The position numbers and the translations under genes were made by a program. The notes under the pieces are model-generated. The model ran no database searches. It saw nothing but the letters and a program-made list of their open reading frames with translations, and had not been told where the DNA came from. This document shows, piece by piece, positions 2,369 through 30,917 of a DNA stretch of 30,917 nt (within the stretch, counting starts at the first letter, position 1; every line of letters begins with the position of its first letter). The stretch comes from a virus, in IMG/VR virus record IMGVR_UViG_3300042896_000059, positions 1-30,917 of that record, one strand, 5' to 3'.

Positions 2369-4154
2369 TATATCCATTGTTAATTTAAGTGCTTATACAA
2401 GTCCTGTAATACAAGAAAATAAAAGAAACAATTATATTGAATATGGAAGTGATAATAATTACTTTCAATATTTGATTGATAGATATTTATATAGTGCTAC
2501 AAATGGTGCTATTATTACAGGTATTGCTAATATGATTTATGGTAAAGGATTAGATGCTTTAGATTCTAATAAAAAGCCTAATGAATATGCACAGATGAAA
2601 TCTATTGTAAAGGATTCTGATTTAAAGAAAATAGCTTTAGAAAGAAAACTTTTAGGAATGGCTGCTATGCAAGTTGTAATGGAAAAGAAACAAGTAAAGC
2701 AAGTACTTCATTTTCCTATGCATACATTAAGAGCAGAAAAATGCAATGATAAAGGACAAATAGAAAATTGGTATTATTTCCCTGATTGGACAAAAAAGAA
2801 GCCAAGTGAAGAACCAAAGAAGATTCCTGCTTTTGGATTTGGTAATGGTAATGAAGTTGAACTTTATATTATAAAACCATATGTTAGTGGATTTTATTCA
2901 TATAGTCCAATTGATTATAGTGGTGCTTTACCTTATGCTTTGCTTGAAGAAAACATAGCAGACTATCAAATTAATGATTGTCAAAATGGATTTAGCGGAA
3001 CTAAAGTAATCAATTTCAATAATGGTATTCCTTCAGAAGAAATGAGGGAAAAAATGAAACGTGATGTACTTGGTAAATTAACAGGTGCAAGAGGTGAAAA
3101 AGTTATTGTTGCTTTTAATGCTAATGCTGAATCAAAGACTACAGTTGAAGATTTACCTTTAAATGATGCTCCAGCACATTATGAATATTTATCTAAAGAA
3201 TGTTTTGATAAGTTAATTGTAGGACATAGAGTTACTTCACCAATGTTATTAGGAATTAGAACAGGTGATGGTGGATTAGGTAACAATGCAGATGAAATAA
3301 AGACTGCTACGCTATTATTTGATAACATAGTAATTAAACCTTACCAACTTGAAATAATTGATGCTTTAGACGAGATTTTAGCAATCAATAGTATATCATT
3401 AAAACTTTATTTTAAAACAATACAGCCTTTAGAATTTGTTGATATTTCAGGTATGAATGCTGAAACTACAGAAGAAGAAACAGGGGTTAAAATGTGTTCA
3501 CATAATTTAGCTACAGATTCTATTGCTGATTTATTAATTGAAAAAGGAGAAACATTAAGCGACGAATGGTTTTTAATTGATGAAACTGAAGTTGATTATG
3601 ATACTGAAGAAGAATTAGATTTAGAAATTAACACTTTAAATAATAAAAAGAAAAGCACATTATCTAAAATGTGGAAATTTATTACTTCTACAGGAACTGC
3701 AAGACCAAATGCTAAAAGTCCTGAGCAAGATAAAGTTGTTGATGGTGTTCAATTTGTTACAAGATATGTTTATAGTGGTGATTTAAGCGGTGAAAGAGAA
3801 TTTTGCAGTAAAATGCTTCGTGCTGACAAAGTATATCGTAAAGAAGATATTGTAAATATGGAATCACAAGTTGTTAATGCTGGATTTGGAAAAGGTGGTG
3901 CTGATTCTTATTCTGTATGGCTTTATAAAGGTGGACCAAGATGCAATCATAAATGGCTAAGAAGAACTTATGCTAATTTTGATGGTATTAAAATAGACCC
4001 TACAAATCCAAATGCAAAAGCTATTAGTTCTGCTACTGCTGAAAAATATGGTTATAGAATTAGAAATGAAAAAGAAGTAGCTATGAAACCAAGTGATATG
4101 CCAACAAAAGGATATACACAAGAGTATTGGGATAAAATGGGATATACAAATTAA
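2361..4154 (+). CDS. Portal protein with extra C-terminal domain
   Basis: A 597-residue protein. Residues 1 to about 380 look like a phage portal: an N-terminal YIEYGSDNNYFQYLIDRYLY segment, then the HRVTSPMLLGI and GLGNNADEIKTA segments, a pattern shared by Bacteroidetes phage portals. The portal forms the dodecameric ring at one capsid vertex through which DNA enters and leaves. From about residue 475 a second domain begins (SGEREFCSKML, YRKEDIVNMES, CNHKWLRRTYAN). It resembles C-terminal domains of phage minor-head or portal-associated proteins and contains Cys/His residues that could bind metal. Portal identity is well supported; the function of the second domain is not known to me. The gene lies downstream of the capsid gene, an unusual order. 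Confidence 0.85.
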   Translation: MSNISIVNLSAYTSPVIQENKRNNYIEYGSDNNYFQYLIDRYLYSATNGAIITGIANMIYGKGLDALDSNKKPNEYAQMKSIVKDSDLKKIALERKLLGMAAMQVVMEKKQVKQVLHFPMHTLRAEKCNDKGQIENWYYFPDWTKKKPSEEPKKIPAFGFGNGNEVELYIIKPYVSGFYSYSPIDYSGALPYALLEENIADYQINDCQNGFSGTKVINFNNGIPSEEMREKMKRDVLGKLTGARGEKVIVAFNANAESKTTVEDLPLNDAPAHYEYLSKECFDKLIVGHRVTSPMLLGIRTGDGGLGNNADEIKTATLLFDNIVIKPYQLEIIDALDEILAINSISLKLYFKTIQPLEFVDISGMNAETTEEETGVKMCSHNLATDSIADLLIEKGETLSDEWFLIDETEVDYDTEEELDLEINTLNNKKKSTLSKMWKFITSTGTARPNAKSPEQDKVVDGVQFVTRYVYSGDLSGEREFCSKMLRADKVYRKEDIVNMESQVVNAGFGKGGADSYSVWLYKGGPRCNHKWLRRTYANFDGIKIDPTNPNAKAISSATAEKYGYRIRNEKEVAMKPSDMPTKGYTQEYWDKMGYTN

Positions 4155-22321: not shown

Positions 22322-23005
22322 ATGAAGTTAGAGATTAGCATACCAACAGAATTAAAAGAAATTAAATTATCACAGTATCAGGCTTTCTTAAAGATAGCTA
22401 AAGACAATGAAGATAGTGAATTCTTACATCAGAAGATGGTTCAAACATTTTGTGGAATAGATTTAAAAGAAGTAGCGGAAATAAGATATAAAGATGTAAT
22501 TGACATTACTAATTCTTTAGGTAAAATGTTTGATGTTACAAACCATAAATTTATCAATAGATTTAAAATGGGTGGTGTTGAATTTGGATTCATACCTAAT
22601 TTAGACGATATGACCTTTGGAGAATATACAGATTTAGATACGTATATAACTGACTGGGACAATATGCATAAGGCAATGGCAGTATTATATAGACCTATTA
22701 AAAAGAATGGTTTAAATGGCACGTATGAGATTGAAAAGTATAATGGTTCTATAACATATTCAGATGTAATGAAGCACGCACCATTGGATGTTGTATTTGG
22801 TGCTAATGTTTTTTTTTACACTTTAGGCAACGAACTATTGAAAAGTACGATGACTTATTTGGAGAACAACAAGGAGATACAGAATATTCTGCATCAGCAC
22901 AATTCGGAAAAAGGTGGGGATGGTATAGTTCAATCTATGCTCTTAGTAAAGGAAGCATTATCGAGTTTGATAGAATTACCGAATTACCAATTAACCAATG
23001 TTTAA
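22322..23005 (+). CDS. Tail assembly chaperone, G-like form
   Basis: A 227-residue protein made by normal decoding. It has a helical body (KLSQYQAFLKIAKDNEDSEF) and a DDMTFGEYTDLDTYITDW segment typical of tail-chaperone proteins in Bacteroidetes phages. Near codon 164 the mRNA has nine Ts (22809-22817), where a fraction of ribosomes should slip by -1 to make the longer GT form. As in lambda, the short and long forms together bind the tape measure and guide tail-tube polymerisation; the tape-measure gene lies downstream. Confidence 0.82.
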   Translation: MKLEISIPTELKEIKLSQYQAFLKIAKDNEDSEFLHQKMVQTFCGIDLKEVAEIRYKDVIDITNSLGKMFDVTNHKFINRFKMGGVEFGFIPNLDDMTFGEYTDLDTYITDWDNMHKAMAVLYRPIKKNGLNGTYEIEKYNGSITYSDVMKHAPLDVVFGANVFFYTLGNELLKSTMTYLENNKEIQNILHQHNSEKGGDGIVQSMLLVKEALSSLIELPNYQLTNV

Positions 23006-29080: not shown

Positions 29081-29671
29081 ATGAGAATAGTAGAATTAAT
29101 AATAGACGAGAACGAAAAATTAAGTGGAATTGATGCAGTATCAATTGTAGAATTTCCAGCAATAGAATCTAATTTTGTTGCATTAAGTGAACAATTAGAA
29201 CTTGCTAAAGTAGATGATGAAAAAAAGATTTTAATGGGTGCTGCTTTAATACCTAATAAAAATATTTATCGTAGAAATGGAAATGATGAATATTATATTT
29301 TCTTTTCAGATGATACAGTACGAAAAGCAAGTGAATTATTTCTTATGAATTCAAATCAAAATAATACAACTTTAGAACACGATAAAAAGTTAAAAGACTT
29401 AAGCGTAGTTGAATCTTGGATTGTTGAAGATACTGAAATGGATAAATCTAAAAAGTATGGTTTAAATGCTCCTGTAGGTACTTGGATGGTATCTATGAAA
29501 GTAAACAATGATGCTATTTGGAATGACTTTGTAAAAACAGGAAAAGTTAAAGGATTTAGTATTGAAGGATATTTTAGTGACAAATTAGAAATGAGTTTAG
29601 AAGTTGCTAAAGAGCAAGAGTTACTTTCTAAAATTAAAGACATCATTTTAAATGGTGAAAAAAAAAATTAG
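29081..29671 (+). CDS. Prohead serine protease, XkdF/Peptidase_S78_2-like
   Basis: A 196-residue protein by normal decoding. His100 in TTLEHDKKLKD and Ser160 in KGFSIEGYF are the likely catalytic pair of the XkdF-type prohead protease, which matures the capsid by cutting scaffold and itself. The core segments GAALIPNKNIYRRN, DDTVRKASE, SVVESWIVED and GTWMVSMKVNND fit the family. It ends at a TAG after ten As (29658-29667); a -1 slip there would add a HAD-like domain. It lies beside head genes, as expected. Confidence 0.85.
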   Translation: MRIVELIIDENEKLSGIDAVSIVEFPAIESNFVALSEQLELAKVDDEKKILMGAALIPNKNIYRRNGNDEYYIFFSDDTVRKASELFLMNSNQNNTTLEHDKKLKDLSVVESWIVEDTEMDKSKKYGLNAPVGTWMVSMKVNNDAIWNDFVKTGKVKGFSIEGYFSDKLEMSLEVAKEQELLSKIKDIILNGEKKN

Positions 29672-29970
29672 CATCACAAAAAATATCATTTGATTATGAT
29701 GATACACTTTCAACTGCTAAAGGAACTGAATTAGCTAAAAGATTAATTGAACAAGGCAATAGTATTTATATTATTTCTGCAAGAGATTCAAAAGATGGTA
29801 TGCTAAACAAAGCAAAAGAATTAGGAATATCAGATAGTAAAGTTTATGCTACAGGTTCAAATGAAAATAAAATAGCTAAAGTTAAAGAATTAGAAATACA
29901 AGTACATTATGATAATAATGAAAACGTTATTAAACAACTTGAAGGAATTGGTAAATTATTCACAAACTAA
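29659..29970 (+). CDS. HAD-like phosphatase-type domain, readable only by -1 frameshift from the protease
   Basis: This frame lies -1 to the protease gene and opens at the A run, right after a TGA at 29656. It has no usable start codon before the domain. It encodes about 100 residues with the HAD core: DYDDTLST (motif I, DxDxT), IISARDS (motif II-like), KVYATGSNENK and HYDNN (metal-binding acidic motif). A fusion by -1 slippage would give about 296 residues, with the HAD domain C-terminal to the protease. A missing A in the sequence would look the same. Function of the domain in the head is unknown. Confidence 0.75.
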   Translation, partial: KKKLASQKISFDYDDTLSTAKGTELAKRLIEQGNSIYIISARDSKDGMLNKAKELGISDSKVYATGSNENKIAKVKELEIQVHYDNNENVIKQLEGIGKLFTN

Positions 29971-29980
29971 AAATAAAATT

Positions 29981-30160
29981 ATGAGTCAAAAAACAAGTTC
30001 ACCAAAAGGTGGTAAAAGAGGTTGCGTATGTAAAGATGGAACATACAATTCTAAATGTTGTACAGGAGAATTATCTGAACAAGGTATTGGAAGTTTAACA
30101 GGTCAAGCTACTACAATTGTAACTAATGTAGACGGAAGTAGAACTATCACACATAACTAA
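29981..30160 (+). CDS. Small Cys-containing phage protein
   Basis: A 59-residue protein (MSQKTSSPKGGKRGCVCKDG; YNSKCCTGELSEQGIG). Three short Cys groups (CVC, CC) and a Gly/Ser-rich body suggest a small structural or metal-binding peptide. I chose ATG 29981, after the A-rich leader AAAATAAAATT; a longer in-frame start at 29909 would lie inside the HAD frame. It is common beside head genes in Bacteroidetes phages. Confidence 0.75.
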   Translation: MSQKTSSPKGGKRGCVCKDGTYNSKCCTGELSEQGIGSLTGQATTIVTNVDGSRTITHN

Positions 30161-30614: not shown

Positions 30615-30917
30615 ATGAATGTAATTAATGAAATCAAAACTCTTTTGGGTATGGAAGTAAAACTTGCTCAAATGAAACTTAAAGATGGAGTTACTGTTTT
30701 AGAAGCAGATGCTTTTGAACCTGAAATGCCAATCTTTATTGTTAATGGTGAAGAACGTATTCCAATGCCAGTTGGAGAATATGAACTTGAAGATGGAATG
30801 ATTTTAGTGGTAGCTATTGAAGGTATTATTGCTGAAATTAAAGAAGCAGTTGCTGAAGTAGAAGCACCTGAGGCAGAAGTTGAAGTAGAAGTTGAAGCAC
30901 AAGCGGAAACAGTTGCT
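30615..30917 (+). CDS. Scaffold-like protein upstream of capsid, 5' part (continues at 1..361)
   Basis: This is the start of the 178-residue protein whose end lies at 1-361; the frame is open through the end of the window. The N-terminal part has a short helix (MNVINEIKTLLGMEVKLAQM) and a small beta-domain (GVTVLEADAFEPEMPIFIVN; PVGEYELEDGMILVVAIEGI), followed by the acidic repeats. The compact N-terminal domain ahead of a long acidic helical tail would allow it to bind capsid subunits and leave space inside the prohead. Assembly role is inferred. Window bases 1-127 duplicate 30791-30917. Confidence 0.75.
   Translation, partial: MNVINEIKTLLGMEVKLAQMKLKDGVTVLEADAFEPEMPIFIVNGEERIPMPVGEYELEDGMILVVAIEGIIAEIKEAVAEVEAPEAEVEVEVEAQAETVA
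30791..30917. repeat. Right copy of 127-bp terminal repeat (circular junction)
   Basis: Identical to window bases 1-127. It lies within the scaffold-like gene. A true biological repeat would more likely sit between genes or near a packaging site; this one cuts a reading frame, so an assembly overlap is the better reading. Confidence 0.95.

Follow-up and report, generated by a model that had tools for sequence, protein, structure and literature searches.

Homopolymeric runs that allow one gene to be read into two proteins are a known principle of recoding, described for tssM, for dnaX and for the Ig-like domains of phages. The closest precedent for the locus analyzed here is tssM: in TssM1 of Citrobacter rodentium and TssM3 of Yersinia pseudotuberculosis a poly-A run, of 11 As in Citrobacter, lies within one open reading frame (ORF) and two length variants result, slippage making long and short forms at roughly 15–25% (PMC4256274). 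Which of the two forms depends on slippage, the long or the short one, differs between the two species (PMC4256274). The dnaX genes likewise recode at a conserved A-run and yield two C-terminal variants, gamma and tau, the runs being A_AAA_AAG in E. coli, A9 in Thermus and A10 in other bacteria (PMC3711429). Among phage structural genes, the -1 frameshift of the lambda G/GT-type tail chaperone gives two forms (PMC5009743). For modules that land in or out of frame the closest precedent is the phage Ig-like C-terminal domains (T3, A2, A118 and PSA), which are promiscuous on phage structural proteins and joined sometimes in frame and sometimes via a shift (PMC5009743); the same review notes that chance may decide whether such a module arrives in frame.

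We analyzed 30 917 nt of viral DNA (IMG/VR record IMGVR_UViG_3300042896_000059; hereafter ‘the window’), in which a run of ten As (A10) lies between a prohead protease gene and a HAD-like domain in the -1 frame. This A10 is very probably a programmed slippage site from which two forms of the prohead protease would be made from one gene, with RNA polymerase as the likelier agent. The site differs from tssM, a secretion-system protein with experimentally proven slippage, as it belongs to a phage gene for a head protease whose modules are interchangeable, and is predicted from sequence; as in tssM, slippage would give a long form with the HAD-like module and a short form with a second module, YTDYP. 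In dnaX the shift truncates a polymerase subunit and is not modular, and lambda G/GT concerns another gene and another run. Unlike the Ig-like systems, the modules are here HAD and YTDYP, sit on the protease or the portal, and share a fixed A10 joint that is common to modules and frames.

Organization of the protease–HAD junction

The protease gene (29081–29671, + strand) encodes an XkdF-type prohead protease (Peptidase_S78_2) of 196 aa in what we term frame 0. Its product matches Pfam PF14550 with an E-value of 6.4e-16 and 58.9 bits (gathering score 24), and it also matches head maturation protease entries of PHROG. By protease, the nearest isolates are Nonlabens phages (48% identity); a DNA-level search of the phage collection gave no match. 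The 3′ end of the gene reads GAA AAA AAA AAT TAG and contains exactly ten As (29658–29667, +), with the stop codon TAG (29669–29671, +) just 3′ of the run, as the preliminary description had noted. The slippery A_AAA_AAA pattern that it had recognized, a heptamer of the type X_XXY_YYZ, is indeed present in the protease frame, at 29659–29665. One extra A in the run would produce a single continuous protease–HAD frame. In a genome so rich in A, an A10 alone is not rare (a Markov simulation predicts about 1.3 per genome), and the non-chance part of this run is its position and its conservation. Downstream lies a gene for a small Cys-rich protein (29981–30160, +), which follows the protease in most relatives.

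A TGA (29656–29658, +) closes the -1 frame just 5′ of A10, so that the HAD frame can be entered at the A-run only. From 29659 this frame is open to a TAA at 29968–29970, and the 103 open codons would occur by chance with a probability of about 1e-4 at the composition of the window. The encoded product (29659–29970, +) consists of a KKK linker and 100 aa, and we found no ATG, GTG or TTG in the -1 frame before the HAD domain. The earlier statement that the domain has no possible start holds for this frame, but a third-frame ATG (29652–29654, +), which is not conserved, could be used if the run lost one A. An internal start at ATA or ATT of the sequence KISFD was discarded, since the linker that precedes it is conserved. 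Standard annotation would drop a startless HAD or call it a pseudogene, and gene callers miss such domains.

The assignment of the -1 product to the HAD-like domains, likewise proposed before, is borne out by motifs and modelling. Across 47 homologues the HAD motifs (DxDxT, IIS, K and DNN) are invariant or nearly so, the corresponding residues being D12, D14, S40, K71 and D85. An AlphaFold2 model of the domain reached a pLDDT of 94.9, and its top PDB matches are KdsC/YrbI phosphatases, with an E-value of 7e-4 and a TM-score of 0.59 on the query length, which is moderate. In the viral library its closest models belong to HAD-like phage proteins and to XkdF-named proteins in which the domain is included, the latter being one-frame fusions. 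Pfam assigned no HAD family at curated score to the domain of the window; a sub-threshold match to PF00702 was obtained for an ATG-started HAD relative only. The motifs and the model thus identify the domain as HAD-like, with a Rossmannoid HAD fold; in the head it may act as a phosphatase or serve as a fold only. A plasmid search with the HAD protein found none; an example of a peptide from the domain is ISFDYDDTLSTAK.

Conservation of the run and the frame in related loci

We gathered relatives of the window by protease and HAD searches that did not ask for A-runs. The arrangement of an A10, a HAD-like domain in the -1 frame and a missing start was observed in ten distinct sequences from several metagenomes (the window, L003, L035, L057, L061, L064, L084, L087, L089 and L108), although A10-bearing HAD cassettes move as units and the ten are thus not ten independent events. 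The protease of L108 is only 54% identical to that of the window and the same joint is kept. Startless HADs make up 10 of 76 distinct HAD contexts, and in 10 of 10 an A10 is located twelve bases upstream; the association has a hypergeometric probability of 7e-11, computed ignoring phylogeny. At all 27 distinct protease junctions carrying the run, its length is exactly ten.

In the listed pairs of sequences the dN/dS values of the -1-frame HAD range from 0.08 to 0.52, with dS up to 1.3, the weaker signal of 0.52 belonging to the pair of the window and L003. Substitutions concentrate at third positions, the variable HAD columns being distributed as 36/23/67 over the three codon positions. These comparisons indicate that the HAD is under purifying selection in the -1 frame. 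The -1 linker KKKVQLA resembles that of one-frame fusions (KKKIQLA in the protease of L090 and KKKIELA in the portal of L098), and this conservation of the KKKxxLA linker, encoded by the run and the bases that follow it, suggests that the run is itself translated. Features expected of programmed recoding at a homopolymer and seen here are a second ORF that abuts the first in a shifted frame without a start, a relation of slippery site and frame that is conserved in relatives, and purifying selection on the second ORF. Together with the one-frame fusions, the conserved run, frame, missing start and linker and the selection on the HAD strongly support the proposed protease–HAD fusion by a one-base shift.

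The search of relatives suggested at the outset revealed both conserved A-runs and one-frame protease–HAD proteins. Separate HAD genes with their own ATG, which had been regarded as evidence against recoding, do exist (L052, L056, L092, L120 and L123), but all of these relatives are without an A-run, and they therefore do not count against recoding in the window. One match of the A-run and HAD pattern in the genome collection, on an Aquimarina contig, was rejected as a chance match that is not a HAD gene.

The same run before other modules

The same A10 precedes a YTDYP module of about 100 aa, fused in frame 0, in 15 related proteases. In these genes the -1 frame stops (TAA, TGA or TAG) no more than about two codons past the run, so that slippage would yield a short form, and the +1 frame also stops a few codons on. 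The HAD itself follows A10 in frame 0 in L090, where the -1 frame ends within a few codons. Our scan for YTDYP did not require A-runs and, pooled with other loci, gave 114 distinct contexts, in which the run length is 10 (17 contexts), 11 (1), 7 (3) or no run is present (93). The A10 of these contexts occurs in all three codon phases, in proteases as well as portals, e.g. GAA AAA AAA AAG, GGT AAA AAA AAA AGT and GCA AAA AAA AAA GAT (the loci L208 and L209 come from a viral pattern scan catching out-of-phase sites only). It appears from this comparison that the kept feature of the run is its length and not its codon phase. Well inside ORFs we counted 509 A7, 66 A8, one A9 and 21 A10 in 2.4 Mb of loci, a pooled census mixing loci from neutral searches with loci from searches that favoured A-runs. 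The 21 intra-ORF A10s sit at module borders, and runs of ten or more As within genes are found almost only there. An in-frame A12 was seen inside an unrelated long ORF (L228, about 3970–3981). In the portals of L098, L208, L226 and L289 an A10 or A11 separates the core from an inserted HAD, YTDYP or short module of the AIC type; every one of these modules is in frame 0, and the -1 frame is closed immediately.

On the protease tree near-identical cores end in nothing, in A10–HAD (-1), in A10–YTDYP (frame 0), in an ATG-started HAD or in other tails, and 30 module changes were counted. L185 and L108 share a divergent core and carry different modules after A10. Other architectures include a one-frame protease with a small module, HAD and YTDYP (L178, 2296–3645) and a protease with an internal HAD (L135, 2475–3506). 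Haloarchaeal viruses carry YTDYP on their portal and prohead protease, and Roseobacter phages carry it on proteins annotated as major capsid protein. The module, which has no Pfam match, occurs in tailed viruses of haloarchaea, Roseobacter and Vibrio (KC292026, MZ334528, PV211010 and others), where its carriers are the protease, the portal and proteins annotated as capsid protein. Judging from these occurrences, HAD and YTDYP domains travel between head proteins. Most module-bearing relatives are without A10, from which it follows that slippage is not required for module function in general.

Proposed recoding and its agent

According to the proposed mechanism, straight reading of A10 would give the 196-aa protease, while one gained A, or a reader set back by one base, would give a 296-aa protease with a C-terminal HAD-like domain. 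The host RNA polymerase stuttering on A10 to produce A11 transcripts would be the likelier agent; ribosomal -1 slippage on A_AAA_AAA, which would yield the same protein, may play a part as well. The HAD would be one of several interchangeable modules swapping at this border, and the frame in which a module landed would decide whether slippage gives the longer or the shorter form. Since the protease enters the prohead, both forms may do so, and a fraction of the copies would then bring the fused module into or onto the head. We further propose, with slightly more doubt than confidence, that A10 may be a switch for optional domains: a slippage cassette of fixed length, indifferent to frame, between a protease or portal core and interchangeable C-terminal modules, a cassette that would set the module-bearing fraction. 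If the recoding is real, a prohead protease is made in two forms by homopolymer recoding, and the comparative set would hold cases in which the same A10 leads to a long form with one module and a short form with another. Such a set would yield a rule, open to testing, for the attachment of optional domains to the head proteins of phages.

The preliminary description had proposed a -1 frameshift. A one-base shift at the A-run is well supported by our data, but the agent may be RNA polymerase rather than the ribosome, and on balance we lean slightly towards slippage mainly by the polymerase. What favours it is the exact length of the run in all codon phases, together with the lack of a conserved RNA structure and of Shine–Dalgarno (SD) use. 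Transcriptional slippage is associated with runs of more than 7 As (PMC3711429), and A10 exceeds this length. No conserved RNA structure was detected downstream of the junctions; z-scores near -3 were isolated, in L003 and L289 only, and a downstream structure as common stimulator was therefore rejected. Rfam and tRNA scans of the window gave no matches. An SD-like motif was found for none of the 44 ORFs of the window, and ribosomes of the Bacteroidia fail to recognize SD motifs (PMC9976891). From the SD absence and the Nonlabens relatives we infer a host in the Bacteroidota. Neither a conserved downstream structure nor an upstream SD, the usual though not always required stimulators of ribosomal -1 frameshifting, was thus seen at the junctions.

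That the same two products come purely from ribosomal -1 frameshifting on A_AAA_AAA or A_AAA_AAG is less probable, and still the most serious competitor. Every A10 context includes an in-frame A_AAA_AAA, and most -1 cases end in AAA AAA AAG, A_AAA_AAG being one of the best motifs in E. coli (PMC4066793). Of 10 lysine columns, only the one capping the run is invariably AAG (14 of 14 sequences); lysine codon conservation alone is weak, as AAA is preferred anyway, and only the capping AAG stands out. This wobble G, present in most relatives, creates the A_AAA_AAG heptamer and keeps the ribosome in play, and the same phages contain a -1 site at a conserved T9 (described below). However, an A7 would suffice for a ribosomal shift, yet the length stays at ten in codon phases 0, 1 and 2. 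The codon after the run is AAT in the window, AAC in L026 and ATT in L090, no conserved stem follows A10, and stimulation of the SD type is unlikely in this translation system (PMC9976891).

Other explanations of the junction

It is improbable that A10 is merely a recombination joint for module swaps, with an out-of-frame HAD tolerated since A10 happens to slip. Modules do change on nearly identical protease cores, as the 30 changes on the tree illustrate, and the combination of A10 with GATTGANTTAG-like DNA behind it is seen repeatedly, in portals as well as ahead of different modules. Such a joint would not account for a run length that is exact whatever the codon phase, for the capping AAG or for the -1 stops that come at once where YTDYP is fused in frame 0, nor for the selection that keeps the HAD in the -1 frame. 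A recombination joint is, moreover, compatible with slippage, and the two are not exclusive.

Even less probable is a free HAD of about 105 aa translated from nine-A transcripts, on which ATG GTG A9 opens the HAD frame from the ATG at 29652. Nine of the ten sequences have this ATG, and relatives have separate ATG-started HAD genes. The exception is L108 (GCAGACGA10), and both the TGA upstream of the run and the conserved KKKxxLA linker favour reading through the run; slippage would be needed here too.

Phase variation, in which changes of run length in the phage DNA toggle the HAD, deserves little credence: poly-A can slip at replication, but neither A9 nor A11 occurs at any of the 27 distinct protease junctions with the run. 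Although homopolymers are error-prone and one more A would join the frames, a sequencing or assembly error, as raised originally, or a decayed fusion is the least probable of all and was rejected, as contigs from several metagenomes agree in A10 and frame, purifying selection acts on the HAD at dS values of up to 1.3, and A10 is found in frame-0 fusions as well.

A probable second frameshift site in the same genome

A run of nine Ts (T9, 22809–22817) lies in the ORF at 22322–23005; from this run the -1 frame, which extends to about 23067, encodes an additional startless domain of about 84 aa. The T9 is exact in 19 of 19 relatives in which the site is visible, and the -1 relation holds in all but L340. 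Judged by layout, this phage group probably uses the site for a tail-chaperone frameshift of the G/GT type, and a conserved -1 site in the same genome supports the recoding reading of A10. In L340 the domain after T9 is in the local 0 frame, perhaps due to an indel or an assembly slip. The window carries a terminal direct repeat of 127 bases (1–127 = 30791–30917), given which it is probably a complete phage genome, and one gene is split across its ends, starting at 30615 and ending at 361.
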